From positions 124,001 through 188,000 of the forward strand of contig JYIP02000012.1 of the NCBI GenBank assembly GCA_001051155.2: a stretch of 64,000 bases of DNA. Reading direction: 5' to 3'. The translations under genes were made by a program, and so were the position numbers. This DNA comes from Chrysoporthe austroafricana (lineage: Eukaryota > Ascomycota > Sordariomycetes > Diaporthales > Cryphonectriaceae). The notes under the pieces were generated by a model. The model was not told where the DNA came from and made no database searches. It was given only the letters and a program-made list of their open reading frames with translations. Positions 1 through 56,592 of the stretch are shown one piece after another. Numbering within the stretch: position 1 is the stretch's first letter; the number at the start of each line of letters is the position of its first letter.

Positions 1-1510
1 CTTATTATTTTTCAAAAATTATTACAGGAAATAACGACTATATATCCTAAATAAAATAGCATTGAATTTTATCAAAAAAGCTTACAATAGAAAATACCAT
101 TTCGGTATAAACCGTATATAGCATAACTTAACGGATCAATTCGTTATTAAATATTGCTATGCCAAAATACGCAATTATATATCGATATATCGAGCTTATA
201 ACGAGAACAAAAACGACTTATAGCAATCTTTAAAAGAAATGCAACTTATATTATCTTTACTAATCCCATTTTATATTATTATTATAGACTTTATTATAGG
301 ATTACCGATAATATTATTTATAAATATTATATAAGTTTTAATTAAAATGCTATTCCTGAATATATTTCTTATAATTACGGATAAATATTCCAAAACTATA
401 ATTATTATATTAAGTAATGCAATATATATTATAGCAAATTGAGCAATTCTTATTTTACGGATATTTTATATTATTAGCTAGAGAATACTTAAAAAGATTA
501 TCTTAAATAGAGATTCGAAATTCCTATCAGAATTCTGGAAATATTTATAAGAAGCTATCGAAACGAAACTTGCTTATTTTACTGCCTTATATCCGTAAAC
601 GGATAAGCAATCTGAAATAAAAAACCGAATAATTGAAATAGCAATTCGGCATTTCATAACCGCTTACTTTAATACAGAATAGACCGAAATAATATTGGCA
701 TTATAATTCAATTTGAATAATGCATATAACCAAGCTATAAAATATTTAACTAGCCAAATGCTATTCGGATTTAACTTATTATCGGGCTAATAAATAAGGG
801 ATATAATATTTTTAGCAAAAGAAGTTTTCCAGGAAAAAGCTTAACTTTTTATTGCCGAAACGCAAATAATAATTAAATTGCAATATAATAAGCATTACTG
901 CCAGATAGTTTTCGAATTAAATAATTGAGTATATATTCGCTTGGATTACGGGTATTTATTACTAAATAACTTATTTCTGAAATTTTTATAATAAAGAATA
1001 AGATTTTTCCAGATTATTCGAAAAATAGAAAACTTAATATATAAATTGAAATTAGCCCTTTATATAAATATTTATCCAATAATTTCAATAATATAATTAA
1101 CGCTTACAAACCTCTTTAAGATAAACTCTTATAAATATAACCTTATATATCAGGACTTAATAGATATGCTAGAAAATCCGGATATCGAGAAATATTTGGA
1201 AAATTACCGATATTACGAGCTGAAAAGGATAATTAGCTGCCGTAAGCGAAAATATAAATATAATCCGCGCAAAATTGAATATTTAGTAAAATAGATAAAT
1301 TACTTTAGCTATTATAATGTATAGATACCCTATAATGCTCTGAATGCGAATGAAATAATACGTAATTTCGAACGGAAATACGAAGCTATAACCGAATTGC
1401 AAGAAAGAATAAAGCGAAAGCAGCTATTAACGGAAGAAATCCTTAAACCGGGAGATATTATTATAATTGCTTTACGAAAACGAAATAGGCCAAAGCGCGA
1501 CTTATAAACA
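1..1510 (+). pseudogene. Gypsy-type retrotransposon relic: integrase and chromodomain end (5' truncated by window)
   Basis: Reading through many stop codons on the plus strand, an LTR-retrotransposon integrase is visible: PFYIIIIDFIIGLPI near 270-320 (first catalytic Asp region), LIITDKYSK near 370, NRDSKFLSEFWKYL near 510-545 (second Asp region), then TDKQSEIKNR near 600. Downstream, 1165-1350 reads as a chromodomain-like stretch (YYELKRIISCRKRKYKYN... EYLVK then YNALNANEIIRNF). The order integrase then chromodomain-like tail fits a chromovirus. The mutations are mostly to A/T and create stops, as expected of RIP. The 5' part (RT and upstream) lies outside the window. It differs in sequence from the second element at 4.7-10.3 kb, so it is another family or lineage. 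Confidence 0.75.
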
Positions 1511-1939
1511 GAAAATGCATTAAAATAAGCTAGTCTATTTATTCCAAGAAATCGAAAGAATTCGCGATACAGTAAGCGCGCATTAGAGTAAAAGTAATTG
1601 CTAAGTAAGGCAAATGAATTTTTAGCAAATGCAAAAAGCTATTATTTCGTAAATTGCTAATAAATTCATTTTGTTTTCTTTTTTCTATTAATACGCTTAT
1701 AACTATTATCCTTATTTACTTATTATAGCTAGCCGTATTGCCCCGTTATTATTATCTTTTATTATACTTTTAAATATTATTTTTAAGCATTAAGCTAATA
1801 TTATTATTAATTTCGCTTTATTTTGCCAAGCTTCTATAAACTTGCAAAGATTATATTAATAAAGCTATTAATATTACTAAAACCAAAATGCATTACGCAA
1901 TTATCAAGTTATATCCTTCCGTAAATGTTTTGCCATAAA

Positions 1940-3720
1940 ACTAAAATTAATAAAAAACGGTATATTTAGCTATATTTAATTTTTATGCGATACCGTACTT
2001 TATATCTTAAGAAGAACCTTTTAAGGTTTGCCGAAAAAGCAAAACTATATAATATGCTAAATACGTTTACAAAATATCGCTTAAAGACCGCTTTTCCTTA
2101 AAAAGATATCGATAAGCTATATATTTATATAATAGCGAAAGCCGTTTCTACTATAATACTTATATAACGAAAAACTACTTAAACAATTTCTTTCGCTACC
2201 AGAAAGCTTATATAATAGCTTTTCGTTAAGCGCTAATTAATAAGGGTTATATTAATATAATAGACCGAAAAGTCGAATATAATATTTATATCCCTAATAC
2301 TAAGCTAAATAGCAGCAATATTAATCGGCCGCTAATTATTAAGGAAGCCCAAAAGCTTATTTTATAATACTTTATACTATTATAGATTAACTATTCTAGC
2401 CTTATTTACGAAAGATAAGAGCTTTATCCAGGCATCTTTACTAATACGGATACTATTATAAGCAAGGATATAAATAACGGATTAATAAATAATTCTATTA
2501 AGAAAGCATTGCTTGAATTTATTCCGAATTCATTTATTATTCGTAATTCTATCTTTGCCCTATATACTCTATTAATAGCTTATCGTATCCTATTTCTTAC
2601 TATAATATCGAAAAATAATCGCTTACGAGATAAGCATAGCTATTATATTAAAAATAAGGCTAGATAGATAATATTAAACAATCGTAATAACCTTATCAAA
2701 AGGGAAGTAAATGCTATACGCTATATAGCCAATATAGCAAAAATCGTTATAATTTACGAATATAGTCGTAATATAGCCCTCGCTACCTGGAAAAAAATAG
2801 CCAAGAATATTAAGCCAGTCTTGGCTAAACTTAAAGCTTTCGAGCCTATTATGCCAGTCGTTAATTTAAGCCTATTTGCTATAATAGAGCGAAATTTCAT
2901 AATACTAGCCAAATGCTATCGAATTATAAACAATACTATCGACTTGATTAAGAATAACTTATTAAATATAGCTAGTTTATTAGCTATATTAAGCAAAGCT
3001 TTTCGAATTAGTATTAATAACATTCTGCTCTTACAGGCTATATTTCGCGCTATTCTTATCTTATTTATCAAATATAACTTTAAATCCAAAGCTATTAAGG
3101 CCGAAATCGCAATATATTACTATACGCTAGCCTTCTATATATCTAAAGAATATATATATTATAATTTCACTTAAGAAAGCAATTTCAGCATTAACTATTT
3201 TTATATTGCTAATGGTTTCGCTATTTATAATAATATTAAGTTCGGTATTATCGGAATTTACGATAATTGTATCTAGTATTTCTTCCTTTTCATTATAAGA
3301 GAATATATATACGAATTTATTATTTGGTTTCGCGATTTTAATCCTATTATCTTATCTAACCGGTTAGGCTTATACTTTATTATAAACCAAATCTTCCGTT
3401 TCGAATACAATTTCAAAGCCGTTAAGATCGTTTTTATTAAAGACAATATAGATTATAATTTCAATACTACTTTTCAGAAATAAGCTAACGAAAATAAAGA
3501 TTACTTTAACGCTGCCCGGTCTTTGCAATGCCAAAATCGCATAATAGGCTTCAAATCCTATATTCAAACGCATAAGCTAATTAAGATTCTGCAATTTGAT
3601 ATCTATAATTATACCGATTTTTGCAATTATATCGGAAAAGAAAAATTATTTGCTATATTCTTTCGCAATTTATTAAACTTTGAAACTATTATTAAAACCC
3701 GGAAAATTATTCCTAATTAA
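1940..3720 (+). pseudogene. Unidentified AT-rich decayed coding region between two Gypsy relics
   Basis: The plus strand carries long stretches of coherent protein-like sequence interrupted by stops, including a 117-codon open stretch at 2821-3174 and a 65-codon one at 3523-3720 (QCQNRIIGFKSYIQ...). Before that, 2040-2800 reads coherently in one phase (YVYKISLKDRFSLKRYR, later NTDTIISKDINNGLINN). Codon use is extremely A/T biased like the flanking retroelements, so this was probably a repeated ORF that suffered RIP. I do not recognise the family. It could be a transposase or an accessory protein of a mobile element. The direction is inferred only from where the coherent open frame lies. Confidence 0.35.
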
Positions 3721-4130
3721 TAAATATAGCTATTATTTATCGATATAATATTATTAATAATATATAATGCTATTTTTTTTTAATAATTTATAAATTTAGC
3801 TATTTATATTAAAAATTAGCTATAATATCGCTATATAATAATTATATACGGCTATCGGCTTTGCATGCTAATATATCTTATTATAATTTCATTTTATATT
3901 TATTATTATTATACTTACTTAATACTTTATTATCTAAAAGCTATACTTTTTATTAATATTTATAAACAATTTTAATCTTTAATTATATTTATACTAAATA
4001 TTTCGGCAATAAATACGATTAAGCATTACCGAAATATACTTGGATATCAGCTAGCCTTATTATATATAAGTATTATATATATTTATCCACTCTAAGTATA
4101 AACCGATTGTAATAAAAGATTAATTTTAAG

Positions 4131-4215
4131 TTCCCGGTATAAGCAGGTTTTCTTTTAATCCCCGGTATAAGCATATTTATTATTCAAGTCCCCGGCATAA
4201 GCATATTTACCTATT
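4131..4215. repeat. Three short direct repeats upstream of the chromovirus gag
   Basis: The motif CCCGGTATAAGCA (with one variant CCCGGCATAAGCA) starts at 4133, 4161 and 4191, a spacing of 28-30 bp. The second and third copies extend into GCATATTTA. The repeats sit about 480 bp before the first visible gag codons, where a 5' LTR or leader of the element would be expected. No matching copy was seen near the 3' end, so LTR identity is not shown. Confidence 0.5.
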
Positions 4216-4680
4216 AGGATTCTGGTACGAATCGGCTTTATAAAACGATTATTATTTCCTATATAATTTCTTTTATCCAATAATGCTATTATGCTTTTCC
4301 TTGCCATATAACTCAAGGTTTTATTATATCGTATTATCGCTATCCAAAACGTTTTTAACTATTAGCTTCCTTTATAAATAAAGGTTATAAAGGGCCGGCA
4401 ATTAATAGCAAAACCCATAAATATAATAAATTTATAATGGATTCGCCTAATAAATTTACAGTAAATCCCTTAATAAATATGCAATAAATTTATTAAATAA
4501 ATGCTATACCCTTATTAAAGGGCTTATATAATGTCCTGATATGCTTTTAGCGTAATTTACTTTCTTAAGAAAAGCATGCTTTATAATATATTTCAGTACG
4601 TTTATTATTATAAACCCTATTTTCTTCTAATAACCCGGTTTTTCAAATAAAGATTCCTGTTATCCTTATTAATAAACAAG

Positions 4681-39057: not shown

Positions 39058-39345
39058 ATGCTGAGTAATGCTGCCAATGATGTTAAAAATATTGATATGC
39101 TGAGCATATGTCGTGGATATGCTACTGGCTGTATTAAAAATACTTATATGCAGAGCATACATCGAGCATATGTTATCAAAAAGACTGGACACCTTGACAT
39201 ATGTTTAACATATGTCTAAAACAAAAAAAGTTCTTTCGTTACCTGGCCAACCTATTATCAGACCTACCTTTCTGTACCCCCAATGTGCTGGTTGAGCCCC
39301 CCGCGAGCTGTTTCTACCCCCATGAGCTACATACCCCTCATCATC
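39058..39345 (-). mobile_element. Diverged fragment of the same repeat family as the element at 62.5-63.1 kb
   Basis: 39,058-39,215 contains repeated GCATATG/CATATGCT-like words. It is followed by TTCTTTCGTTACCTGGCCAA at about 39,231-39,254. The reverse complement of 62,612-62,640 gives the same word in the same position relative to CATATGCT repeats. Beyond it, degenerate TGTACCCCC and ACCCCCATGAGCTAC units (39,274-39,335) mirror the GGGGTGTACA units of the other copy. This copy has no clear second end. Confidence 0.6.
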
Positions 39346-39417
39346 CGCCCACCATGCAGGCATCGTGGCATCTATCCCGTCACCAAGAAATACCTCGTCT
39401 CTTTTCGTCGAGTCGCC

Positions 39418-40907
39418 ATGGACAAGCTGAGTCCAGAAACCTTTTCTCTCATCATAACCCAACTCCTCGGGCAGACCATGCCAGCACGGGGCGACACTAC
39501 TCGCCGTGCGTCGACCTATTCATGCGTCTCTCGCAGCTGGCAGCAAGCAGTCGAAGCACACGCCTTTGCCAACATCACAGTCAGTAGCAGGGGGCTGTCC
39601 ACCTTCGCCCATATCCTTTCTGGGCTCGGCTACCACCGCCACGCCCTCTTGCGCCAGCTCACCTACAACGTTGGGCTGCGGACCCACGGCGACTCGCATC
39701 AAGATCATGCTACCAATGAGCATACCTTCGGCGTTGCGTTCAGGTCGCTTTTGGACCTACTTCAGTCCTAAGACTTTGACCAGGTTGAGCAAGGCCGGTG
39801 CCCAAGCAGAACGGAGCATGCGAGGCTGCAGCTAAGGCTCTGGCTTAGCTACGATATCAGCAGTGACACGGACGGCCCCGTGGACCACGATTTCGGCGTG
39901 TCTAATTCCACCGCGGCGCGGCGGTATCACGGCCTCCCGTCTGGTCTTGCCATCCCAGTAGTCAGTCATGTTACCGGCTTCAAAGTTGATGTCTCGCTAG
40001 GACAGGCACCGCATCCCACCACGCTCTGCCAGCTTGCCGGCTGTTTCCCCCGCCTAGAAAACTTGGATCTGGAATACCGCGACCCGGCCGTCAAGAGGCG
40101 CGAGGTGCGCAAGGCTCACCGCTTGGCACTTGGGAACGGGCTGAGGGGACTGGCCGACAAGCTGCCGAAGCTGGAGAGGCTGTGCATCAGGCGTCAGGGA
40201 GGATCGGACCCGTGGAATCACAGCTTCGACTACCAGGATCATCGAGACGGCGGAGTCGACGTCCTTTGCGACGCGATCAGGCACCTGGCACAGACCACCC
40301 ATATACGAGAGCTGGAACCACAGGACACTCTCATCTTCGCGGATCTCTTCAGAGACTGGACACTCAGCAACAATGAGACAGCTCTTTCCCGGCTTTGAGG
40401 GGCTTCAGGATAAAGGCCGGCATCCTCGCACCCAACGGAGAGTGGTACTATACAGGTGACCCAGCCGCCGTGGAGGCCGGCGAGGAAGATCCTGCCATCG
40501 ACGACGATGACGAGAGCGTTACTACCGATACTTCAGATGAGGATATGTTATCGCACGACCGATTTGTCAATGGCCAGCGACCGCACCACCAATGGCGAAC
40601 GCGTCCTGACCCGGAGATGTTCGATCCTTTAGTCAGGAATATGACAGAAACCATGCTCCAGCGGATGCCGAACCTTGAATGGGCGCAGTTGGTGATTGGT
40701 TTAGTGCAGTGGTGCGAGGCCAGGCAGCCGTTCATTAGCCCTCCTAATAGGAGGCCGGAGCAGATACACCTGAAAAATAAAACAGTGAGAAGGTGGGTGG
40801 TGTGGGTGGGGAGAGGTCTGCACTTAGATGTGCCAGGCGATGTGATGAGCAAATTGCAGGAATGGGTCAGATTTTCTGGCCAGACTGGAATCAGAATCAT
40901 TCCTTAA
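39418..40907 (+). pseudogene. Broken F-box-type gene
   Basis: Starts MDKLSPETFSLIITQLLGQT, then SCVSRSWQQAVEAHAF, an F-box-like N-terminus. It continues through leucine-rich sequence (LAGCFPRLENLDLEYRDP, LADKLPKLERLCIRR) and an acidic insert to a C-terminus (VRRWVVWVGRGLHLDVPGDV, MSKLQEWVRFSGQTGI) typical of a large Sordariomycete F-box family. Two lesions are visible: an in-frame TAA at 39,769-39,771 (after SLLDLLQS), and a 1-nt frameshift at about 40,393 where ALSRL* gives way to LRGFRIKAGILAPNGEWYY. F-box proteins recruit substrates to SCF ubiquitin ligases via SKP1. Either lesion alone would truncate the product unless spliced out; no good intron spans either. Confidence 0.7.
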
Positions 40908-41874
40908 AAAGCCAAAAATTCTCTGCTTTTCTACCACTATTACGACCTTTTGCCCTCAGACCTGATCTATATGGGGGTTTTTTTGGGGGGTTTTTTTTTC
41001 CCACATCTTCCTTAGCATATGACCTACCCGTCGTTGATTCAAATATGGTCTATGTAAAATTTGTTGGCCTCGGCGTGGGTCTCGTATCTGGATGCCGACC
41101 CGCCCAAGCCACCCTTCGAACAGCATGCTGGATGGCAGATGCTGATCGCCGTCTGCGAGCACATCAGAACCCCATCGAAAATCGTATTGGGGTTTGAGCG
41201 CATAACCTTCTGTGCCGTCCAACTTTTTTTCGGAAAGGAGGGCAGTAAATGACCTGCCCAGCAGCGTTAGCTTCGACATATTCGGTACTACGGTCTGCAA
41301 GGATCGTCTTACCCAAAGCCGACAGCACTGGCATCACGGTATCGTTGGCTTTGCCAGGAGCTGACGATGCCGATATGGGGTCGTTAAAGTCGGATGACAC
41401 ACCACGATAGACTCGCAAAGACCCGTTGCTTTAGGGGGAATCCAGCTTGGTGGGTTTGAATCTAAACACAATGTGCACTGTCTATGACGAGCTCAATAAT
41501 TGCCACCGATTCAGCGCGAAACACAACCGCGACTTTCCGCAAGCTCTTCTCATTCCCTGCAGTCTCAGGTAGGCGAATGCTACTTCTGGTGAACCTACTA
41601 GCGTAACTATCAATTTAACTTATCAAGTCGCTTGAACCTGTTTGCCTTGCATAAACTACTGCCAAACACCCTCTGGATCAAGACATCACATATTCAGCAA
41701 TCTTTCTGATCCACTGATATGGTATCCGCATCTTCTCATGTTGGTCGCTCAACTCCTTCAGAGCAATACTGTAATGGCCAAAGTTGATCGTGCAAAGGAC
41801 ATCGCATACCCTTCGGGCAGCTGATACGGCCCGGTCCCGTCGCAGAATCAAACGCTTGATGTCTTGAGAGCTAT

Positions 41875-42921
41875 TTATGCTCCCATCCATGGGCAAGACC
41901 GCCTTCTCGAAGCTTGCAGCCCTAGTTGGATGGTAATCGGCATACCAAAAATGCTGGATAAGAGATTCTGATTCTCGAGCTGTGTGCTATCCCGTTGGAG
42001 ATCTCGGGCCTTATTATCCACCAGGCCACCGACAGCCTCAGATACGCGTTTGTGCAAGACCGCCAGGATAGATTGTGTCGTGCAGAGCTGCTCGAGGATC
42101 AAGTGGACCTCATCATTGTGGGGGCTTAGGTCGGAGCCCCAGGCGGCGGCATTCTCCTGCATGGCTGTGACCCACTCGTTGGCATCGCTGCGGCTAGGTC
42201 CGTGTCGAAGGAGCCAGGTCTTCTCCTTAAGCTTGGAGACGAGAGCATCCAGCATCTCGGGTCCTCGCGTTGGCTGCATCATTGCGGCGAAGATGGTCCG
42301 CCAGACCCGCGTCTCAGTTCTCGCGGGCCTCGCCTCGCCGGTCGAGAAGTGCATCATCTGCACTAGGGTATGCACACCGCAGCTAGATTGATCGGTCTGC
42401 TGCTCTGCTGATGCGATAGCGAACTGCCATACATTCTCCAGTTCCAACTTCTGGAGAAACTTGGCCATGATCTGGTACGCCTTATTGAGGTGGTTCGTTG
42501 TGGAGGCGGAATCACAGGTCATGACTGTCTTCTGCTGCACCGACGCATGTCCGAGAACCCAGTGCTTATTACCCAGATTGATTGTAGCTAGTACGTCGAA
42601 GGACTCTCCTTCCTTCATGTTTCGGAGGGGACCGGAATACTGCGAGTCAATCAAAGAGCCGGTAAGGACGACGTCGTTGAGGGCAACGTACTGGTAGAAG
42701 CCATCCTCTAAAAACATCATCTAGGCAAGGACTCTGATCATTTCATCATTCAGCCATCCTTCGATGCCTGTCAGCGTCGACATATCAGGGTCCTTTCCGT
42801 CATTCGCCCACGAATCTTTGGGTGGGGCATAAATAGTTGACTTCTTTCTGATAACGGCGGAGGTACTGACAGCGGTGTCGTTACCGCGAGAGTCTTCGTC
42901 GGAATCAGGGATCTTGATCAA
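41875..42921 (-). pseudogene. Ulp1/SENP-type (C48) cysteine protease domain with internal stop
   Basis: Minus-strand frame starting upstream at MIKIPDSDEDSRG and passing GIEGWLNDEMIRVLA, then TAG (42,723-42,721), then MMFLEDGFYQYVALND, all in one phase. The catalytic set is intact: His in GNKHWVLGH, Asp in MTCDSAS, Gln in AEQQTDQSS and Cys in QSSCGVHTL. WLNDE is the usual start of the fold. Ulp1-type enzymes cleave SUMO (or related) conjugates. A single C-to-T change (CAG to TAG) would explain the stop. In fungi, C48 genes often sit in transposon-rich DNA and some are carried by DNA transposons; no inverted repeats were found here. Continues upstream into the next entry. Confidence 0.75.
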
Positions 42922-44449
42922 GTCAAAAATTCATCTTCAAGAGTAATCTAGCCGGCCTCTTGCGATAGACGCAGACGCTTCGCGACCGTCTCCGCATCCG
43001 TCGGTTCGTCTGATTTGGCTTGATGTTTACGATTCGCGTTCGCGGTGCGTCCGGAGCCGCTGACGCCACGCGTGTGGACTTTAGATGGTGTCGGGCATCT
43101 CGCCCACAAGCGCAACCGCCGAGGGATGGGCTTCTTGTGCCTCCGCCGACGGCATTGCGGATCGGAATGGAGCTCCACTCTCTGGTGCTCGAGGGTTTGA
43201 AAGGGGACGGGCAGAGGGAGTCTGAGGGACTCCGACGGATGGTACAACTAGCTTCGTGTCGTCCCGCCTGGGAGTTTCCAGATCTGGCTGCGTGCGAGAA
43301 TTGTGGGCATCCGTGTAGTTGAAAGAGTCGGTACTCGTGGAATGGGCGGATGATGAAGACTCTGTACAAGAAGGGCGAGATGAAGGCGAGGCCTGCTCAA
43401 GGCTCAGATCTTGGTCGCGCACGATGGGGGCCGGGATACTTGGCGGGACAGGCGGCACGGCCTCGACAAGCAACGGGGCAACAGGCGGCGCCTCTTGTTG
43501 TGCGCCGACGTCAGTAGTATTGCCCACGAGGCGGACGTTGATGCTAGCCGCCTCAGTGACAGCAATTCCTGCGCTGGCGGCGTTTAGGGATGTGATTTCA
43601 GTCTCCGTACGGGAGGTGTGGCTGAGGGCACTGCTGTTGCCCTGGCGCGCTTGATAGCTCATGCCACCTCTTCTTCGTTTGATGGCCTTGCTGACATCTC
43701 TAGGCTGCATGGCCTTACGATCCCCCATCCACTCTATCTCTCCCATGCCAAATACAGGGCATGTATCGTGCGACGCCTTCGTCCGGACGTAATACTACAC
43801 AATGATGGCCGGGTAAATGTTAACCCAGAAACTGCAGGTTTTGCCGAAATGGCAGGCAGCATCGAAGTCATCTAGGCCGGACTAAGATTAGGATACCTAG
43901 CCTTCATCCGCGCGGTCGATGGCTTCGGCGATTTCTTGACGAAATGTCCTGCTAGTGAGCTTGGAACCAAGCAACAGGTAGGCGTGACGTCAGTTTTTGA
44001 GGCCGAGTCGAGGGCTTGAGGTCATCCCCGTTGAATGAGACATCGGACTCCTTCCTCAGGAATTCGAGATCAAGAAAGATGTCGAGCACAGTCCAGATAA
44101 CAACAGTTCGATATGCCCAGATGCCGAAAAGGGACGGAGGTGATGGACTCCCCGCCTTTATCTGCGCAATCGCGTATAGCTTGCACCTCAGCAGCACGAA
44201 GCTCCGCAATCCTCCCCCAGTGACCCTTCCACGATTCGTTCTCCGGGTCGCGTTGCATGTCCCCGCGCAGACCTTGAATGGCAGTCAGCTCATTGTTCAA
44301 GCTGGCCTGCTGCTGTAGCAAGAATTCTTGAGGGTTGTTCTCTCCCGCGCTCTCCTGGCCATGGTCGCTGTAGACCGAATCCTCCTTTGCCTTCGCTTTC
44401 CCTTTTGGCCCGACGGTTATCTGTCTAACTGGGGACGACGCTGGCGCCA
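42922..44449 (-). pseudogene. Decayed N-terminal part of the Ulp1-like gene
   Basis: Minus strand, starting MAPASSPVRQITVGPKGKAK at 44,449 with coherent sequence to about 44,070 (QASLNNELTAIQGLRGDMQ, HWGRIAELRAAEVQAIRD). A frame change follows, then a Ser/Pro-rich disordered stretch at 43,746-43,081 (MQPRDVSKAIKRRRGG, VGVPQTPSARPLSNPR). Stops and frame changes occur near 43,080 and 42,960 before the protease domain. The continuous strand and disordered-linker character suggest a single long N-terminal region of the protease gene, but the join is inference. Confidence 0.45.
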
Positions 44450-47400
44450 TGATGATGAAGCCTTGGGTGTCAATTCGAGGCTCAAACTCGGAGTATGTTG
44501 TGCTTGTCTTGGCCGGCTTGGGGCAGAAAAGACTGGGTGTCAGCATGGATATATACCTGCTGGTCATATGAACCAGGTAAAAATAAGTCTCATGTACTGT
44601 TTCTCCGGCGTTTGCTCCGGCATCTAGGTAGTCAAGAACGAAAGGGAGACGGAAGAGAAGTGAAGAACTTACTTAGGGCGTTGTTAATTTTCGTCCTCAA
44701 GGTTGTATGGCTGCCAACAGCATTCCTGCTATTCCCACTACCAGTGGTGCTTATCGTTGAGGTGTGGCCACGATCTGACAGGCCTTTGTGTGCATGAGAG
44801 CGCGCGCGAGTGTGTGTAGAGCATACAAGGAGAGAGTGGGAGTTAAATAGGAAGAGAGGGAATAATAGAGAGAGGGGGAGGACTGAGTACCAGTTTGCTT
44901 TGGGGGGGGGTGCCCACCTGGTGAAAGCGGCAAGTCCACCCTTTCTTTGAGACCCAACGCTTTCGACGCATCCCAACATTTGCCACCCGAATTCAAGGCT
45001 GCGTGAATCTCGCCGGTCTCAACCCGTGTCCGGGGCGGACCAAGACAGGCGCCATCCGGCAGGTGGAATGCTGCACCCCACATACGAGCAAGACGGTCCA
45101 AATCTCAATAGAACAAGAACCAGGCTTCCAGTCTTCATGCCTGAGCTGATTGGAAGCCAAGAACCTACCTTGTTAAGTCTAGCTCATAGCCCGTACGCCA
45201 GAGGGACTTTATGGTCTGGCTGTGAAGTTTGAATAAGCCAAATAGCGAGGGAGGTTGGAGGGGGGGTGTGCTTCGGAAAGGGGGGGCAGTTAAGACTGGC
45301 CCCTCACCTCCTTATGTCTATAGTAATTATTTACTATGCATGCTCATGTAGGCTCTTCTTTTTTTTTTTTTTTGTTTTCGTTTTCCCCTGGTGCTGTTAA
45401 AGCAGAGTATAGATAGCAAGCCTAAGATAACATCACTCGAAACAATTCACTTTCCGCGCGGGAAACCCCCACTTGAGGGTGAAAAAGACTGAGCTTGCGA
45501 GGGATGCGACTAATCCATCAACAGATTATACTAATTATTTAATTAATGCAACGCATGCTTACGACAGCTATATCTCTCAGGGTCTATACGTTTTTTTTTG
45601 GTAAAAAAAAAAAAAAAAAAAAAGGCTGCGGCTAGTGCCATCTAACTTTCATAAAAACATCCCTAGGGGCTAGTTATAGTTAGTCTTACTGTCTGACGGT
45701 CTGACGAGGCAGAACGAGACATGAGAGCAGGGGGGGTCGTTGCTCTGCTCGTGCTGATGCTCACCTCCTTGCCCTCTGACCACACTGGCATTCAAGGCTT
45801 ACCAGCATCTGCTTTGACGGTCCATCCACCTCCCTCATTGCTTGTTATTCTAGTCAGGCGAGGTACAGCTGGGGCCGGAGCCAGAGCCGGGGGCCTAATT
45901 GATTCTTCTCAGGGCTTCGGAGCAGACTTTCGTCATCCCAGCCGGTCTGATCTGGCGTTGGCTCTGGCACTGGACAGCGATGCAGCGTCGGCGCCAGCCC
46001 ACAAATATTGTCGCAAGGAACAAGCAGGTGGGCTAACGCCATTGCTTTAGGGTGACTAGTTCATCCGAAAAAGAGTGTCCCAATAGGCATAGCCAAGAGT
46101 CTATACATCCGAGATACAAAATACATCTCTTGCCGCCATGCATCGCACTCCGACAAAAACCATACGTTTGGCCTAGAAACGCAATCTGCTGAATGAATCC
46201 TTGTGCATGCCCCTGGTAATCGCATTGGCTATGCGATGAGTATCGCCAAACCTCAGACATAGCAGGAACGTGATTATATAGGTCCCTGCGTCCCCTCTCT
46301 TTCGGTGCCGGGGCTGTTCCGAGATACAGCTCTTAGGCTGTCATCAATTTGAGGTAAAGCCAGGGCATGCTTCAGCAACATGAACCGCTTCGAACCAAAC
46401 AACTCGTACCCTCGTGATCCGCCATCCCCCTTCCCGGCTCTCCCCTCTATGTACAGATTACAAGTGCTTTTCAGTATGTCAAACGCCGCGACAGCTCTTT
46501 TGGGTGTCACCACACAGGCTCGAGCTCTAAAGGTGTGGCATTCACCTCAACATATCGCAAGAGGTACGTGCATGCCGTCTACAGCCGCACCCTACAGGTC
46601 TCATATGTATCAGCCATTTCAATCTCAGCAGACCGCCCATTCATCAGTCTCGATCGCGATGCGCTGCCAAGATTAGCTGGGTCCGAAATGATTACCCACT
46701 TATTCATCCCGCTTGGAACCCCAGTCAGGACATCTCGTTTTCAGTGGAACTGGGGTGGACTGTGCTGAGAAGAGGAACAAGACCTCCGCTGGCTCACAAA
46801 TACTTGGCGGATTATACCATGTAATTACTGAGGTAGCCAGAGGGCAGTCGCCTAGTTTGTATCACTGTAGCAATGAGAAATCATATCGAATACTCCAGAT
46901 TTGAGAGAAAGGGGGCAGTCACTTTGCTCCACTGCGCACACTCGTTCCAGCTGCCACACCTACGATAACTGCTACCTATCTGTCAGCGCCGCCCCAACAC
47001 CCCACCTCTCCTGTAGAGCATCTGTTCGTGCGAATGTAGAGGCCCCAGGCGTCGTGCTGGTCCCTGGACATATCGCAAAGCTACTAGGGTCAGTCCGTAC
47101 TCAGCGCCTAGAAATTGCTGCTGCATTCGCCGTCTTTGCCGTCGTCACTTTGTCTTCGCTCAGGGGCAGTCGAGCCTAGTCGATGCCTCTCTGCAATCCG
47201 GCGTCAAGCTGCGGAGTCCTCCCGTAGAGCGTCTGCAAGGTGTATGTCTGCGCTGGGCTGGTTCGGCGGGAGTTGGTCGACAGTGGAACGCATGGGCGGC
47301 GATAGTGATGCTGGCAAATAAATAAACTGCTACTTGGATATCGCGTATGACATTATTTAGAAGAGTAAGAAATGCCTCTCCGTCTTGAAAAACTTGATCA

Positions 47401-48620
47401 GTAGCTGTTCACCCACGATCCCCGGCACATTCGACTTCCGGACATCAGAATTCAGCAGCGACCGCGGGCTGCATGGATGAGCCAGTCCGAGCGAATGCCT
47501 TCGGCCTCGACAGCACCAGCATTGGCATTCAACACCCTCTGCGGCCACTTCTGGGCTGCGGCTTATTAGTCGCACTACGGTATTTTTCTACAGACTACTA
47601 CTAGCATGTCTAGCTGTGGACATTATCGTCAATCCTTCTCGTAATTACGGTTGCGTGCCGCGTTCATCCTGCCTATCTTCTGGAGAATCGGTAGTCCTTG
47701 GGGAGGGTAATGGAGGGTACCACCAAATGGTTTGATGGTTATCAGACTAGCCTGATATCGTTCACTAATGGGACTTCGAAGACGGAGTTGGCTCTAACGA
47801 CCTGAAAGCCCGGGCTATCACTGATGATTACTGCATCACTGCCAGGGACAGGTCCAACGTAGGTGTAGCGAAAGACAAGCCGTGGTGATATTGGACGTGC
47901 CGAACATACATCTAAGTACACCGGAATGAGCCTAAAGATTGTGACTCCATGCTTCAGTTGCGTGCGACCACCAGGTTTGTTTAGCCGGTTAGTAAGGTAT
48001 ACCTTCTCAGTATAGGTCAAAACACCCCCCTTGCGATCGCCTACTTACATACAAACTACTCATTTTAAACATACCCTTCAAAGCTTCAGAAAAATCGCAT
48101 AGGCTCAAGATTAAATTGGCTTATCCACATTTACGTATATTACATTTATTTGTAAATAGATTCAAATATTTCTCAATTTTGTTAACGAACTAATATTTTA
48201 GAATGGGGTACACTGGCAGTTTAAGTTTAGCTCTATTCTTTGACGAGTATGCATTTAGTTACAGGCTGCCAAATTTGTAAATAGTTTTAAGGGATATGGG
48301 TAGACCAGCTATGTATGAAAGCGACTTTAGGCCTCGTTCTGAGAAAATGTAGAGTTAAAGGCAGAGTAGACGCATCACGACGGAGAGTAGCCGCTCGCAG
48401 GCTTAGACGCGGAAATAAGAGTACGGAGCCGGAATGAATAAACTTTCCGTGTTAATACCTAGTACGGACGTATGTCTGCGTAATCCAATCACCCATGTGA
48501 CAAACCCACATTTTCTTCTCCATTTCTCTTTTCACTCTTTCTGAACCTGTTGTCCCCGATGTTTGTTCTTTAGCCTAGCGTGTACTTCACGACGATAGAT
48601 TTGATCTCCAACCTCTGGCA
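44450..48620. other. Long stretch without a recognisable gene
   Basis: Contains only short frames, the longest 116 codons, without family resemblance. Low-complexity features: G-run at 44,901-44,910, T-run at 45,360-45,373, and a T9/A21 inverted homopolymer pair at 45,590-45,622 (T's, GGT, then A's) that can form a hairpin. A 92-codon minus-strand frame at 48,020-47,742 (ending SVFEVPLVNDIRLV) looks somewhat protein-like but unidentified. 48,060-48,200 is AT-rich. Confidence 0.4.
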
Positions 48621-49368
48621 ATGGCAACATACACTCGGCCAAGAAGGGGAACCATTTCTGTCACCATTCACGTAACCGGGCTTCTCTTCTTTGCGGCGTC
48701 GTTTCTGTGGCTCCAGACCATTACAAATCCTCGGCACAATGGATTCGGTGGCTCATACCAGTTCCTAACCGTCATCGCACTCACCATCTCTACAGTCACG
48801 TTCATACTCGGCCTCCTTGCAGATCTTTCTCTCAACAAACATCTCATTGCCCTAAAGAACATGCTTTCGGTATGCGCTACACCTCTCGAAATCCTTATCA
48901 GCATCACATACTGGGGTCTTCGCTCCGTTGATAAGAGGTTCGTGGTACCTCCTGGGCACGAGATACCATTCATTCCAGACTTTGGCTTCCACGCTATGCC
49001 AGCAATATTGTTGACGCTGGACTGGATACTCTTTGACGCTCCCTGTTCAATCCAGGCTTACAGTGCCATGACGCTGTACTCAATATTGGCGTTCTTGTAC
49101 TGGGGTTGGATTGAATACTGCTTTTCGCTCAACGGATGGTGCGGCATCCTAACAACCCAGAGTCTGATACTTAAAAGAGGTTGACAGTTCTCGCAGGTAT
49201 CCTTACCCTTTACTCACGCGTCTTCCTAGCTGGCAAAAGCCACTTCTTTGTATTACCCTAGCTACTATGATGACATCTCATGTCATGACTTTGCAATGGG
49301 TATATAGACAAACCAACGGAGTCAGACAGTCTAGGCGGGACCCTTGCAACCCGGTCAAACTAGACTAG
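48621..49368 (+). CDS. FAR-17a/AIG1-like integral membrane protein, two exons (229 aa)
   Basis: Exons 48621-49138 and 49197-49368 (690 nt). The 58-nt intron has a GTGCGG donor and a CAG acceptor; splicing changes a false end (NGWCGILTT) into the family C-terminus NGWYPYPLLTRLPSW then MTLQWVYRQTNG. Hydrophobic segments lie at about residues 13-32, 48-68, 82-100, 125-145, 155-175 and 195-215, giving the expected six-helix plan of the FAR-17a/AIG1 family. Human members (AIG1, ADTRP) hydrolyse fatty-acid esters of hydroxy fatty acids using a Thr and a His; fungal roles are poorly known. The likely membrane is the ER. Appears intact, with ATG in CTGGCAATGGCA context. Confidence 0.85.
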
Positions 49369-50973
49369 GCAAAGTGGTGATAGGGTGTCTAAAACCCCTA
49401 GTAGACTATAGCAGCTGTGTGGATATCGAAAACTTATGGGCCAGTACATTTAGTATTTCTGTTAGTGTGATCTGTCATGCTGAGGAACCGGGTGTTTGAA
49501 GTCATCTTTAAGCTGCGAAGGTTGAGTGAAGTAGCAGTTGATGTATAATGATATCCTCTAGCAGTTTGTTCTTGACCTCTTCGGGTTTTACCAGACCCAG
49601 TAGCCGCCGAAAAGTTAAGCTCGGATTGTTGACTTTCGTTGGTTGACCCCATCCTTCTCTCCAGTGATGTTTGGCTAGGGGTCTGATCGATGCTTTGAAA
49701 AGGAATCTTTGAGATCTTTGAGGTTTAACTGGAGCTTTTCCCTTGATTCGCATTTCCGCCCAAGTGAAAAGTCTACTATCTTTCAAACTAGAAGTGGAGG
49801 GCGCTTGTACTTACACCTGGATACAGTAATTGTGGCAAGAAGATATTATCATCACTGATTTACGATCCCCCTCCAGCCATGTGTGACAGCCACTGTGTCC
49901 CACTGTCCCATCTGCCTCCTGCATCCTCTACCGCGTTTCTCCTCGCATACACTCTTCGCCGTGGCCCTTCTTTCTCTCTCTGCGTTGCAAATCCTGTAAG
50001 TCAAGAACATCGTTGCAGAAAGCCGAATGCCATGGTGCCAGGTACGGCCATATCTGGGGGTCATCGAAAGGTGTTTGTTATTGATAGTGATATGAATGAT
50101 GGAGAGGAGATCACCGTCAATTTTAGGGCCAAGTTTTTGATTGGGTTAGATTGTATTTACGAAGACTTCCTATAACGCTTTTTTCTCCTAATTCATATTT
50201 TCTTTAATTTTATTGCGTCTCATATGCTTTTCCAAAAGACGTAGATACGAATAGCTCACGTTTAGTACAAACACACTCATCCATTCATATAGCGATATAG
50301 CATCTATAGTGGATCCATTGTTCGCCCGGGATCTAACGCAACCCGTAATTTGCCGACGATATGGTCAAATGTACAGAAAATAAAACAGATGCTAGGTTGT
50401 TGAGAAGGGATGGCTAATCCTGCTGGTATTCTAACCTGGGCGTCCCAAAGTCTTGGATAACAAGCGGCTGAGATCAACAGCACCCTCCTAACGAACTCGG
50501 CAGAACCGCTACGATGCTAAGGGGCGAAGCCCTCTGGCAGCGACCACACAACGCTCCATTTTACCCAGTACATAGCCCAGCATAGCCCCAGTGGCGTCAA
50601 GTCACATTCAGTAAGCGGCGTCAGCCATCCGAACTAGACCACAAATGCGTATCCTAGAATATTCAGCTCGGACGATGGTTCTCTCCCTTCAATTAGCAGA
50701 TAGCCGCGTTTCCCGCAGTTTCTAACACTTATTCAACGCATCGCATGGATAATTCGCGACACCTCGACCCAGAGTGTATAACGACTGGTCCAGCTTTCCT
50801 ACTAGTTCGACGCGCGTGTTCCTAAGCTGAGGCTCCTGTTCGCCATAATTAGTGCTAGTCGGCACTTTGAACAGATGTGACAAGGCAATAACATCACCCC
50901 TTTCAAACGGGTTATGAACATTTCGTCCATTCACCCCAAGACTTCTGGCAATCATCAAAGCAAAATAGTCATC
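49369..50973. other. Unassigned; two protein-like short frames
   Basis: A minus-strand frame at 49,786-49,508 (contains LTFRRLLGLVKPEEVKNKL) and a minus-strand frame at 51,027-50,722 (contains TSTNYGEQEPQLRNTRVEL, ending NYPCDALNKC) look more protein-like than their surroundings, but no family is recognised. The second one overlaps the proposed first cullin exon on the opposite strand. A plus-strand frame ending at 50,175 (HRKVFVIDSDMNDGEEITV) is also unidentified. Confidence 0.3.
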
Positions 50974-51995
50974 ATGGACTCTCAATGGCCAGCAGAATCG
51001 CGGGCTACCGAGGAGACTATCCTGCAAATGCCCCCGGGAGTCAACTCAAGCGACCCTGAGGCAGTGTGAGCCTGTATTCGCCCGCGCTACGTGTGCATTC
51101 TCCTGATATTAGCGACTAGGTAGCCCTATGTAGAGAATGGTCTCGATCGCGTCATGTTTGAGCTTACCTGGGATACCGACATTCCGTCACTTGTAGGGCT
51201 GTATACGTGAGTTCTCCGTCTCTGAACGAGTTGCGCCTGCTGAACGAAGTGAAGGGCCGTGCACAACTATTGCACATCACAGAAGGCGGTTGTCACCGGA
51301 GCTACACTAAACAGATCGGGAAACGTGAGAGGTGCGTCTACTCAAAAAGTAGCAAGCTCTCATAGCTTTACCGTTGACAAAAAGGTCCAGCTTCCTTGCT
51401 AGGCGGAGAACTCCCCAGATTCTTCGCAAACTATCTCCATCAGTACCTTAGCACGCTCAAACAACGTCTCAAGTCACTTTCCGGTCATATACTCCTGAAT
51501 CACCACCTCGATGAATGTGCCCATTATACAAACGCCGCCCAAATCATCAATCACGTCTTTAGGTACCTCAATCGCCACTGGATCAAGCGCGAATTGGACG
51601 AGGGGAAGAAATCGATCTACGACGTCTACACCTTGCACTTCGTCCTTTGGCATAGTGAGCTTTTCAAGGAGATATCCTACCTGCTGGTAGACACCATTTC
51701 GGAGCTAGTGGACAAGCATCACAAAGGTGTGGCTATAGAGTTCGGCACGAGCAACGTCTTCATCGATTTCATTATGTTGCTTGAGCTTGATAGCATGAAT
51801 CTGTCTAGTCCTATCCGCAACGTTTACGGAAACCTTGTTGAAACTCCCTTGCGCATCGCCCTCGAAGCCTCTGACTATGGAGACCTGCCCGAATTTCTCT
51901 ACGAGAGACCGATTACAGCATCTATGCACATAAGAGGAATGGCCCGTAAAGATGGAGGAGCGACTTGTCACTCTGGTTTTGCATTCTGGATTTAA
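50974..51995 (+). CDS. Truncated CUL1-type cullin: N-terminal SKP1-binding region only, four exons (286 aa)
   Basis: Proposed exons 50974-51063, 51124-51206, 51255-51331 and 51385-51995 (861 nt). Exons 2-4 are well supported: ENGLDRVMFELTW...LVGLY|TAVHNYCTSQKAVV, NVRG|PASLLGGELPRFF, then YTNAAQIINHVFRYLNRHW and IKRELDEGKKSIYDVYTLHF. These are hallmark cullin N-terminal sequences closest to CUL1/Cdc53. The product ends shortly after the first cullin repeat and part of the second (ALEASDYGDLPEFLYERP), with a divergent tail GATCHSGFAFWI and stop. The remaining cullin repeats, the cullin-homology domain that binds RBX1, the WHB domain and the neddylation lysine are absent; intact CUL1 is about 760-780 aa. 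Introns are 48-60 nt. Exon 1 (MDSQWPAESRATEE) is the least certain; the start could be the Met at 51,153. Frames are free of stops, arguing against a random relic, but expression is unknown. Confidence 0.75.
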
Positions 51996-52029
51996 ACAAC
52001 CGTTCCCTGATAGCGACCGCGACACTGGC

Positions 52030-52649
52030 ATGGTAAAGCTTGTCACTAATGATCTAATCGTCATTGAAGCTGGCAAGTAGCCACGAGAAACGTCCCTCAG
52101 TCGCCACTGACCGCTAACCACGTTGCAGATCAGAAAGCTGTCGAGTTTTCTGTTCTTATCAAGCATTCATGCGCATACTTTGGTAGGAAGATCGTCGCTA
52201 GGGAACTTATTCCCCTCCCAAGCGTGGCGGAGCCAGTCCTTCGTAAGGTCCTCGAGTGGTGTGAATACCACAAGAACGATGCCGATATCAATATCCACAG
52301 TATCAGACGCTATAGCAGACCCGATATGGACGAGTGGGATCAGAAATACTTCGAAGTTGATACAAAGACGTTGTTCGAAATTATTCTTGTACGATTTCCC
52401 CTCGCTCCAACATATTTGCTGCTCTAGGCGACCGCCTACTGTTCGTTTCGCTGCGTATGGCTGAGTTGATCACAGGTTGCCAATTATCTTGACATCGAAC
52501 CACTATTAGACGCAGGCTGCAAGGCGGTAGCGAATATGATCAAAGCAACACATCCTGACAAGATTCGCAAAACTTTCAATATAACCAACGAGTTCACGCC
52601 TGAGGAAGAGGAGCAGATTCATCGGGAGAATGAGTGGCAAGATAGATAG
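52030..52649 (+). CDS. SKP1-like SCF adaptor, three exons (158 aa)
   Basis: Exons 52030-52072, 52129-52388 and 52476-52649 (477 nt). Product starts [25 protein letters not shown]-like part to about residue 105 with [18 protein letters not shown], then [11 protein letters not shown] and [17 protein letters not shown]. The C-terminal F-box-binding helices are complete ([23 protein letters not shown]) and the protein ends QDR, where most SKP1s extend a few residues more. The length fits SKP1 (about 160). SKP1 bridges the cullin N-terminus and F-box proteins in SCF ubiquitin ligases. Intron 1 has a GC donor (GCAAGT) with a perfect GCTAAC branch site and CAG acceptor; intron 2 is GTACGA..CAG. An in-frame ATG at 51,952 would add 26 residues and overlap the cullin stop. 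It lies 34 bp after the cullin gene. It is quite diverged from housekeeping SKP1 and is probably a second copy. Confidence 0.88.
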
Positions 52650-52662
52650 GTATACCAGTCGG

Positions 52663-52915
52663 ATGGATAGTCTGCGCCTTACTGATGGTTCCACACCAGA
52701 GAAGCACGATTTAAGGTATGCGGGAAGTGAATGAGGAGAATGGGTGCGCTGTTGGTTCGACAGCTAGGGCGAGGGGTCAAGTTCACGACATTACTATTAG
52801 TGAAGATATCGCGGACTTGATTTCCATTCTAAGTAAAAGATTCCGCGCTCTGCCTTTCAAACTTGAAAGCATCGTCAAAAGTACTGGGTGGTCCTTGCGA
52901 CAGGAAAGACAGTGA
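52663..52915 (+). CDS. Tentative small spliced ORF just downstream of SKP1 (66 aa)
   Basis: Exon 52663-52715 (MDSLRLTDGSTPEKHDLR) joined via a 52-nt intron (GTATGC..CTAG) to 52768-52915 (ARGQVHDITISEDIADLIS then LPFKLESIVKSTGW). It begins 13 bp after the SKP1 stop on the same strand. The phase works and the second exon looks helical, but no family is recognised and no clear branch site is present. It could be a third member of the compact locus or chance. Confidence 0.2.
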
Positions 52916-54718
52916 ATTGTATTATGTCCACATCCCAGTAATTCTTGAAGGTACTCCTCGGATCTTCCTGCTACTAACTAGAATTTCCTGAAGTTAGTCG
53001 TGGAAAAGTACAATTTCTTAATACGCCTACCTAGCATCAATGTCATTAAATCCTATATACAGAACGACTGAAATGACAAGAGTGGACAGAAAGCGATAGC
53101 ATCGAATTAATGTTGAATGCTAGCAAAACTCTTAGCATGACCAAATGGAAGTAATTCGCGTGAGGCTCCACTTGTCTGAGAAACTTCGGGGCGCTTCTAT
53201 TCTTTACCTTAGCAATCAATTCAACGATCGCCTTGATCAAGTGTGTTCCGACGATTCGTATTGCATAATGTAATTATTCTAATAACCATTTCCGAGCTCA
53301 GCCTCTCAGTGTTTCAGGGCATCTTTCTATCTTGAGATCTAGGAAGGTCTTAGTGATCACGAACGTATCAATTTAAAATAATACCCGGGCGCCATGACAC
53401 TCGGTTCGTGGAAGACGGTGCCGAACGGGCCTGAGTCGAAACGCCTTTCGGATCGGTGCCTGCATCCAGGAGCGGGCGCGCCATCTCCGGGCATTGGCGG
53501 GCCGCTGTCTGTAGCAGTGACAGAAGCTCTGTGCGAGCGGGGTCTTCGCTTCCGAAGCTGCAATCGAAACCCTCCAGCGTGAGCTCGACTAACTAGTAGG
53601 GGCCAGTGAGGCTTGGTGAGGTTGTCGAAGCGTTCGGCAAGATTGCTATGGAGGGACTGGATAGTACAGAGACGCCGGTCCTACCGGTGGCTAAGACAGT
53701 CCTAATCCGCTCATTCAGTTGTCAGCCGGGCAAATGAGCGGATAAATAATTAACAGAGCGGATGATGGTCCCGAATCCGATAGATGTATTCATGACGAGC
53801 AATATGGTTATTGAAGTTTACCTATCTGAGACGGATGCCGATGGCAATAGCGGTAATATTGGTTGTAGTGTTGACGGCTTGGTACAGCTCGTTTAAAATT
53901 ACTTCGAGGTTACGCCATGATTGCTTTTACCGATCATTTTCGTAAATCCTAGACAACGACCTCACCCACTCCCCTAACACATGAATTTTCAAAGAGTTAT
54001 AATACACTACTAAGAGCCCTGGCTTTCATTATTATTGCCTCTCATGTCAAGCATATTTGGTATGCACGCCACGTACATGTATAGACGTCTGAGCCCCTCT
54101 TCCAGTCCAAGAGAAAGAGAAAGGATAAGTAAAGCAATCGAATTTGAGAACTGTATCAATTGCCAAATAGTATTTTTTTACTTTTCTTCAATTTCCAGAT
54201 CCGCCGCATGCAGCCTTTTGATTTTGTTTATTTCCCTACATCAATTCTTCCGAGCCGCTGGGTTTTACGGTTAGAAACCAACAATATTTAAAGCTGAATT
54301 AGGCTTAATAATACTTGAAGAAATAAAATGACTCGCAAATACTATATTAAATAATGCGAAAACAATATTAATATCGCACATTACTTATTTAAAAAAAAAT
54401 CGAATAACTTTATTTATAAATAACAGTCTGAAATAATATAAAGTTTCTACGTAATAATATATTTTTATATTGTTCATTCTAATTTCTTACTTTTTAAATA
54501 CTTTTATAAAAGCAGTGTAATTAATTGTAAACTTTCCCAAGCAACCTTTTATCGCTGTTCTTCTAGTTTATAATACACATGTACATTAGTTCTTTTTCAT
54601 ATTCAAGGATATTGTTAATGTATATTTGCCGTTACGAAAGCTTCATTTTGGTTGTAAAAGTGAGATTGCTGTAGAGTTTGGAACCCAGAGCCGCTCTACA
54701 AGACGAAGAAACTGTTAG
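52916..54718. other. No recognisable gene; AT-rich patch at about 54,280-54,660
   Basis: Short frames only. The AT-rich patch may be a small RIP-affected remnant or the 3' flank of the minus-strand membrane-protein gene that ends at 54,719. Confidence 0.4.
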
Positions 54719-56592
54719 TTAGCGGGTAATCAAACAGTAACGTAGTGTAGAATTTACCTCAACTTCGACATCTGTCCGAACGTAAATATGCCCTAGCCCC
54801 GGCGTCTGCGAGTCTGAGTTTCCTATGCTGCCTGCGATATGTGCTTGCGGGACACCCCATTCCAGGTGATCAGAAGCGCCGCCACTATGATTGAAGCATC
54901 CATTGTCACCACAGAATCTCGTCAGCTGGATTTCATCACCCGCTGTACCTCTTCCGTCATTACGTGTCTGGTCAAATGTCGCGTCGAGGTCCGTGATATG
55001 GTTCAGGCTGCCGAACCGGGAGAAGCCATCGTGTCCACTTCGACTGCGCCAGTTCCGCAGGCGTCCGCTCTTGTTGGCGGAGCTTCGAGCACCGCTGCTT
55101 TCGCAAGAAGGATAGCTAGGCTTGGTACCGAGCTTCCTCCTCAACTTCTTGACTAAATACGGGCCGATTATGGGGAGACAAGCGCACACCACTGCAATGG
55201 TCTCGATGGATGCGGTGAGAATCAAGAAGATGGCCACTCCCCCTGCCACAAGGCAGGTGTCAGTAGCGATAGTGCTGATAAAGTTGAATCTGTTCAGAAT
55301 GAGAGGGACAAGTAACTCACAGCTTGGATCGGTCTTGTCATCCGTATCGATGAGCAGGTCGAGTATACGTGCTAGCTCAAGCACACAAGCAATGGCGCCA
55401 ACTCCGAAGACGGCCAATAAGCCATACTTTCTCTTCCTGCTGAGCTTCAATTTCGATATTGCCCATATGGGTAAGACCATGAGCCCCACATCTGATACGA
55501 GACTAAAGATCACAGGAAGTGCGACGTTGAGCACATTTGTGACCGCGCATTGGCCCTTGAGTCCTCCTGGTACCGGCTTTTTGAACCTAGCGTAGTATTG
55601 TAAAAAATACCACTGTACGGGACTGCACTGGAACAGGTAGAAACCGGTAGCCCCAATCCACCATAGAATGGTGTAAACCAGATTCACCGACCAGAAAATC
55701 CGCATCGCTTTCCACTGTCGGCCTGTCAGAACGTGGTTCTACTTCTTTGGAAGAGGAAACAAAGGGACATGGATGCACGACTTTGCATGGGGAGGTTATA
55801 CATGCACAAGGAGACCTTGGAAATTACGGGCTCCAGTGTGGATCTCAATGAAGAGCTTCTGCCTCACAAACCATCCAAAAGGGGAATACCTTGATCTGGA
55901 GGACCTACCTTAGTGACTAAAAAGAGACGCTTGTAGAAGAAGAGCAGCGTCATCTTGATAGACAGGAAAAAGCTGGCCATCAAGACCATCGTGATCCAAA
56001 CATGCTTTTTGCAAAAGAAAAAAAAAATAAAAGTCAGCCAAAATATTGATGTGATGAAGTCTGATATGAAAACCAAGAACCTGGGCAAATGGGGAAGGCT
56101 AGTTCACCCTGAATGTGTGGGACAGATTCGTTGGATAGTCCGGATCTCGCGCATTCACAGTAAAGAAGTGCATGCCAAGCCCATAATGAGTTGCTACCAT
56201 GAGGTTTGCTATAATTGCATTTACGAAGATCTAGATGAGTCGTCAGAACGACCATTTCATGCTATGCAGCAGGGCATTTGTCTGACTCCACTTAGAATGA
56301 TCTGTAGGCGTCGGTAGTTAGTAGTTTTCTTGTTGTGATACTGAAAAAAGCTCTGAGAGAAAGCTGAAGAGAACCCCGAAGCAAGTTAAGTTGGTAATAA
56401 TGGGTGGCATACAAATATGTCCTCAGCTGTAATTCTCTTGCGATTCACCATCGATCCCCATTTGATCCGTAGTCTTGCAGCAATGGCAATATCGTTGATG
56501 ATAAGGAAGCTTATGAGACAGCCCCAGAGTGCCGGCTGCCTCGTCTCATGGTTGAGAGCCTCCTGCGCTGGGGTGAGTATGTATGTAGACAT
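54719..56592 (-). CDS. Rhodopsin-domain (PTH11-like) membrane protein, five exons (about 438 aa)
   Basis: Minus-strand exons 56592-56413, 56230-56108, 56004-55909, 55714-55321 and 55242-54719 (1317 nt). The introns are of mixed size (78-194 nt). The joins restore family sequence: ITAEDIF|IFVNAIIANLMVATHYG, SHTFR|HVWITMVLMASFF, LFLVTK|WKAMRIFWSVNLVY, and TDPS|WGVAIFLILTASIE; the last removes a 78-nt in-frame intron (GTGAGT, CTGAC, CAG). Seven hydrophobic helices are followed by a 150-residue Ser/Arg/Gly-rich cytosolic tail. Landmarks THYGLGMH, FQCSPVQWYF, VLPIWAISKLKLSRKRKYGL and VVCACLPIIGPYL match the family, which resides in the plasma membrane; the ligand is unknown. Starts MSTYILTPAQEAL. 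A further 3' intron (GTAAAT..CAG near 54,760-54,711) would change the last residues. Intact in this model. Confidence 0.8.

Follow-up and report, generated by a model that had tools for sequence, protein, structure and literature searches.

SKP1-cullin-F-box (SCF) ligases assemble by exchanging SKP1-F-box modules on CUL1. The described systems closest to the locus presented here are the SCF scaffold CUL1/Cdc53 (PF00888), SKP1, known also as SconC or scon-3 (PF03931 and PF01466), and the dominant-negative Cul1 forms made in the laboratory (Cul1-N252, N385 and dnCul1). We analysed a stretch of 64,000 nucleotides from Chrysoporthe austroafricana (contig JYIP02000012.1, positions 124,001 to 188,000; hereafter the window, in whose numbering positions are given). 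Its positions 50974-52649 carry, on the + strand, seven coding blocks, four of cullin and three of SKP1. A first-pass annotation made from the letters alone had read them as a two-gene module, a truncated cullin directly followed by a complete SKP1-like gene. Our analysis favours, with a probability of roughly 0.55, a single gene of a fungal family that joins CUL1 residues ~1-261 to SKP1, whose unbroken members would act as F-box traps and whose window copy was probably inactivated or split recently. Like CUL1/Cdc53, the fusion has cullin repeat 1, part of repeat 2 and the FRYLNRHW motif, and unlike it has no CUL1 sequence beyond residue ~261, neither repeat 3 nor the C-terminal half that binds RBX1 and is neddylated. 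With SKP1 it has in common the POZ fold and the F-box-binding C-terminus, although its SKP1 rides on a cullin N-terminal part and has introns. As reported, the laboratory dominant negatives are cut at nearly the same place in CUL1 and also lack the catalytic half, whereas the fusion is natural, occurs in several fungi and brings its own SKP1. Because of this last feature, it would sequester F-box proteins yet leave the pool of free SKP1 untouched. No description of a natural cullin-SKP1 fusion stood among the listed matches of a full-text literature search, taken at the level of titles and abstract starts and with most subscription papers outside its scope, in line with the first-pass view that no such system had been described. 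The parts are known in kind; their combination is new to us.

The assembly searched, fungal by its genes, comprises 48.15 Mb in 22 contigs, and the locus lies on the 673 kb contig C4. The cullin model has 284 residues (50974-51063, 51124-51206, 51255-51331 and 51391-51995) and is backed by the N-termini of the database proteins P0006 and P0004, apart from the weak donor of exon 1. This exon (50974..51063) begins at an ATG and its N-terminus aligns with P0006 ('PAERRDT-DMIPQMPP'), while the donor GTGTGA leaves its 3' end uncertain by a few bases. Alignment to relatives placed exon 2 (51124..51206), which runs from YVENGLDRVMFELTW to SLVGLYT and encodes the first cullin helices, and exon 3 (51255..51331; AVHNYCTSQKAVV). 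The in-frame portion of exon 4 (51391..51948; FRYLNRHWIKRELDEGKK) reaches human CUL1 residue ~261 by phmmer, and the cullin match ends there, or at residue 275 of the fungus's own CUL1. Pfam Cullin (PF00888) matched this last exon with E 7e-13, and with E 1.7e-11 in the whole-genome search. The cullin half is 39% identical to the housekeeping CUL1 of the same genome (contig C12; 252 aligned residues), its N-terminal repeats contain the SKP1-binding helix motif YLNRHW, and the peptides HNYCTSQKAVV and YLNRHWIKRELDEGKK, which had first called attention to a cullin, are both present.

The claim that this cullin lacks its catalytic half was borne out, since the match stops at ~CUL1 261 beside a full SKP1. 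Neither C-terminal cullin homology, with an RBX1-binding half, nor a neddylation site was found, and the sole PF00888 match on C4 is N-terminal (six of six candidates scored). The six cullin matches in the genome are the housekeeping CUL1 on C12, C17, C18:1077709, C18:4110478, C16:996032 and the C4 locus; those at C18:1077709 and C17 span the whole profile, and that at C18:4110478 is presumably APC2-like. None of the others lies near enough to the locus to supply a spliced-on C-terminal half, a finding that the first-pass annotation had named among those fatal to its proposal. Neither the missing half nor a second copy was detected elsewhere, the DNA of 50900-52700 occurring at a single place in the genome. 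Separately, a cullin fragment stands isolated at C16:996032-996223, in an open frame of 81 residues; it covers profile positions 370-437, resembles CUL4 by eye and is probably a gene relic.

The SKP1 model has 158 residues in three blocks (52030-52072, 52129-52388 and 52476-52649). A phase-1 GC-AG intron (GCAAGT..GCAG; 52073..52128) follows the first SKP1 strands, exon 2 (52129..52388) encodes the BTB/POZ fold, a GT-AG intron (52389..52475) separates FEIIL from VANYLDI, and exon 3 (52476..52649) encodes the F-box-binding C-terminal helices, which judging from the alignment are retained. Both the POZ domain (Skp1_POZ, PF03931, E 1.9e-6) and the Skp1 dimerisation and F-box-binding domain (PF01466, E 8.5e-21) are present. 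Thus the profile search that had been proposed with PF00888, PF01466 and PF03931 gave a match at the locus for all three, each exceeding the curated cut-off. The window SKP1 half is 54% identical to the genome's own SKP1 (C17; 155 aligned residues), and the only other Skp1_POZ match in the genome was a short one on C20. The coding sequence of the housekeeping SKP1 (C17:3823000-3826000) is intronless, unlike the SKP1 part studied here. Since cullin and SKP1 halves both carry introns they are not retrocopies, as had been noted at first. Another kind of natural SKP1 fusion appeared by eye in P0150 and P0151, which contain repeated SKP1 copies (two in Erythroxylum, several in Trichinella).

The comparison that carries the single-gene reading comes from 16 database proteins in which a single frame spans the cullin part and continues into SKP1. 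A search with the cullin part returned 26 proteins, 17 of which were examined as sequences; 13 of the 17 continued into SKP1, and a profile search added three more. Among the other nine, the tree placed eight outside the fusions, and P0026, which had no cutting motif, was left out. The profile search scored 7993 candidates and the best 120 of 2824 matches were listed, with P0013 and P0019 not among the matches listed; further members of the family may exist. In the viral and prokaryote collections no relative was confirmed. Where the first-pass annotation had suggested looking for adjacent pairs in other fungal genomes, these relatives are single fused proteins or continuous open reading frames (ORFs). 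Four fusions extend to the end of SKP1, those of Cryphonectria parasitica (344 aa), Hyaloscypha variabilis (465), Coleophoma crateriformis (461) and Nemania sp. (355), from the orders Diaporthales, Helotiales, Helotiales and Xylariales, respectively. The C. parasitica protein (P0002, annotated as Skp1-domain) is the same fusion with the frame unbroken, 75% identical to the window copy in the cullin part (155 residues) and 72% in SKP1 (156), and as listed it starts inside the part that matches window exon 4. The other 12 relatives are partial ORFs, mostly from collections taken to be metagenomes, with P0014 from ncbi. All 12 leave SKP1 homology at the position of the window's phase-1 intron, a position not visible in the four listed full-length proteins. 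From these sequences, the family consists of CUL1 residues ~1-261 and a full SKP1, and the half of CUL1 concerned with RBX1 and NEDD8 is absent.

That such fusions are annotation chimaeras of tandem genes is barely credible and largely refuted. Automatic gene modelling may have produced the four that extend to the end of SKP1, but the 12 partial ORFs cross the junction unbroken, which makes chimaeric gene models unlikely for them; moreover, the linker is alike among nearer relatives and both halves gave the same tree order. In the cullin-half tree (39 rows), all 17 fusions stood on one side of a branch with support 100/100, and in the SKP1-half tree (31 rows) the five fusion SKP1 parts did so with support 100/97, the window half being separated from the remaining 26 SKP1 rows. 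The window was sister to C. parasitica in both trees, and Hyaloscypha and Coleophoma formed a second branch. This grouping fits a single origin of the fusion.

In the window copy the frame is lost in the linker. Homology to relatives in the cullin frame ends at ~51946-51955 (a net shift of two bases, equivalently +1), before the ORF stop at 51993-51995, and the ORF tail (51949..51995) is out of frame. The next frame is open over 51934-52072, carries KMEERLVTLVLHSGFKQPFPDSDRDTG and continues directly into the first SKP1 strand; its portion 51952..52072, comprising linker and SKP1 exon 1 (MEERLVTLVLHSGFKQPFPDSDRDTG), has in-frame ATGs at 51952 and 52030. After the break the sequence aligned with relatives in this other frame (KMEERLVTLVLHSGFKQPF against EIEERLVTLVGHSGFDQRL in P0002), resembling the linkers of P0002 and of three partial ORFs (P0001, P0003 and P0005). 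Because of this alignment, the gap between the supposed genes is conserved linker coding sequence. The start of the linker, EERLVTLVLH, resembles by eye the CUL1 continuation in the housekeeping copy (EERVKLYLH), and part of the linker may thus be old cullin. To look for an intron that would bridge the break, we listed GT/GC..AG introns of 40-160 bases with the first base at 51700-51993 and the last at or before 52030. Among the 57 options, none of the 25 with a GT donor had a consensus donor, and these introns would delete cullin sequence which relatives read through. A single uninterrupted frame over the junction is present in the 16 relatives and absent from the window copy, which, read against them, is a broken or split member of the fusion family and not an intact one.

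These results overturn the two-gene module as first described. The spacing of 34 bases is correct (the cullin stop ends at 51995 and the SKP1 ATG lies at 52030) and both parts are on the + strand, but the cullin frame is lost and not simply ended. It is therefore improbable that the locus holds two genes whose products, a stub of cullin and a SKP1-like protein, pair in trans: there are two open ORFs, the second of which could start at ATG 51952 or 52030, yet what would be intergenic DNA is similar, in a shifted frame, to the linker of relatives, and 16 relatives have one ORF or protein. The case illustrates that a frameshift can make a fusion resemble a two-gene module.

We put at even odds that the family was functional and the window copy is a pseudogene, dead since the frameshift. 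The frame loss in the linker is followed shortly by a stop and is not bridged by any intron with a consensus GT donor, the exon-1 donor is weak, and the G+C content at third codon positions is 0.58/0.51 compared with 0.76 in housekeeping genes. In contrast, no premature stop interrupts the remaining 429 modelled codons, the other introns run GT or GC..AG, and the end branches are as long as in C. parasitica, whose copy is unbroken (0.49 vs 0.52 and 0.21 vs 0.21 in the two trees, window first). The frame loss is therefore probably recent or an artefact. An assembly or sequencing error in what is truly an unbroken fusion was considered less likely, and on balance improbable: this is the only lesion seen, and the gene is open elsewhere and evolves normally, but the site of the lesion lacks a long homopolymer. 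Codon-position differences relative to housekeeping genes (0.63 at third positions, 0.27-0.44 at first and second) concern older history only. Altogether, we lean towards a newly dead or split window copy over a gene unbroken in reality or a locus from which both ORFs are made.

For the unbroken members, a mechanism can be proposed from the fused parts, which are cullin repeat 1 with part of repeat 2, a linker of ~30-40 residues and a complete SKP1. The cullin part would cover the cullin-binding face of its own SKP1. The fusion would bind F-box proteins and, having no RBX1/NEDD8 half, keep them and their substrates off the active SCF core. An unbroken fusion would hence be a built-in dominant-negative F-box trap. 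The predicted model of P0006 matches CUL1 16-230. The decoy or regulator role proposed in the first-pass annotation fits the intact family while unproven, and is doubtful for the frameshifted window copy. A natural protein with the docking part of CUL1 welded to SKP1 and no catalytic half would be the evolutionary equivalent of the laboratory dominant negative, and would give a direct test of how fungi tune their F-box repertoire. More tentatively, several ascomycete lineages might keep an encoded, self-contained SCF inhibitor that titrates F-box proteins, with one origin and two classes, which a frameshift would have just split here into two ORFs that might still pair in trans. Instead of a trap, the fusion could be a scaffold that takes F-box proteins to another partner or serves a SKP1 role outside SCF, which we regard as rather unlikely. 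Solved structures do place SKP1 in non-SCF complexes (the CBF3 kinetochore complex and PRC1.1); however, a Pfam scan of P0006 (E up to 0.01) detected no domain beyond Cullin, Skp1_POZ and Skp1. With 69 candidates scored, the genome gave 36 F-box-like matches at E up to 0.001, possible clients of a trap.

Several observations weigh against an F-box-trap gene with a recently broken window copy. The proposed docking in cis is not demonstrated by the predicted template modelling score (pTM) of the model alone, and the frameshifted window copy may do nothing. At positions that are presumably Skp1 contacts (human CUL1 42-43), the window, P0004 and P0006, all three sequences with this region, have L-V where housekeeping CUL1 has Y-M, and the cullin-SKP1 interface may thus differ. 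P0002 and P0019 start later inside the cullin part, which leaves the full N-terminus visible only in P0004 and P0006. In the SKP1 tree, the branches of Nemania (1.37) and Hyaloscypha (0.53) are long and their position is less sure. Finally, when neutral decay to 87% identity was simulated, 7% of 1000 runs remained free of stops, and open frames alone are therefore not strong proof of constraint.

The surroundings only partly agree with the transposon-rich region described at first. Positions 1-4610 of the window are multicopy, an AT-rich element (25% GC) with 11 other near-full-length copies at ~85% identity (11 of 827 candidates scored), but 41800-50900 is single-copy: 41800-45000 entirely, and 45000-50900 except for one 63-base match. 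DUF3435 marks the captains of Starships, which are giant transposons, and none of the 23 DUF3435 matches in the genome lies on C4; the locus was thus rejected as Starship cargo. Regarding a mini-chromosome, the outer 3 kb at each end of C4 contained no run of telomere repeats. ORF pieces at 39220-40907 (+) resemble a fungal F-box protein by eye (MDKLSPETFSLIITQLLG...), the first piece having no Pfam match, and an ORF at 41878-42720 (-), within the single-copy 41800-45000, is similar to Ulp1-type C48 peptidases (E 1e-7). On the other side of the locus, a dispersed repeat of ~200 bases at ~53692-53911 gave 28 further partial matches elsewhere in the genome, with identities of 71-100%, and a fungal rhodopsin-domain membrane protein (54722-55738, -; E 1e-17) adjoins the locus.
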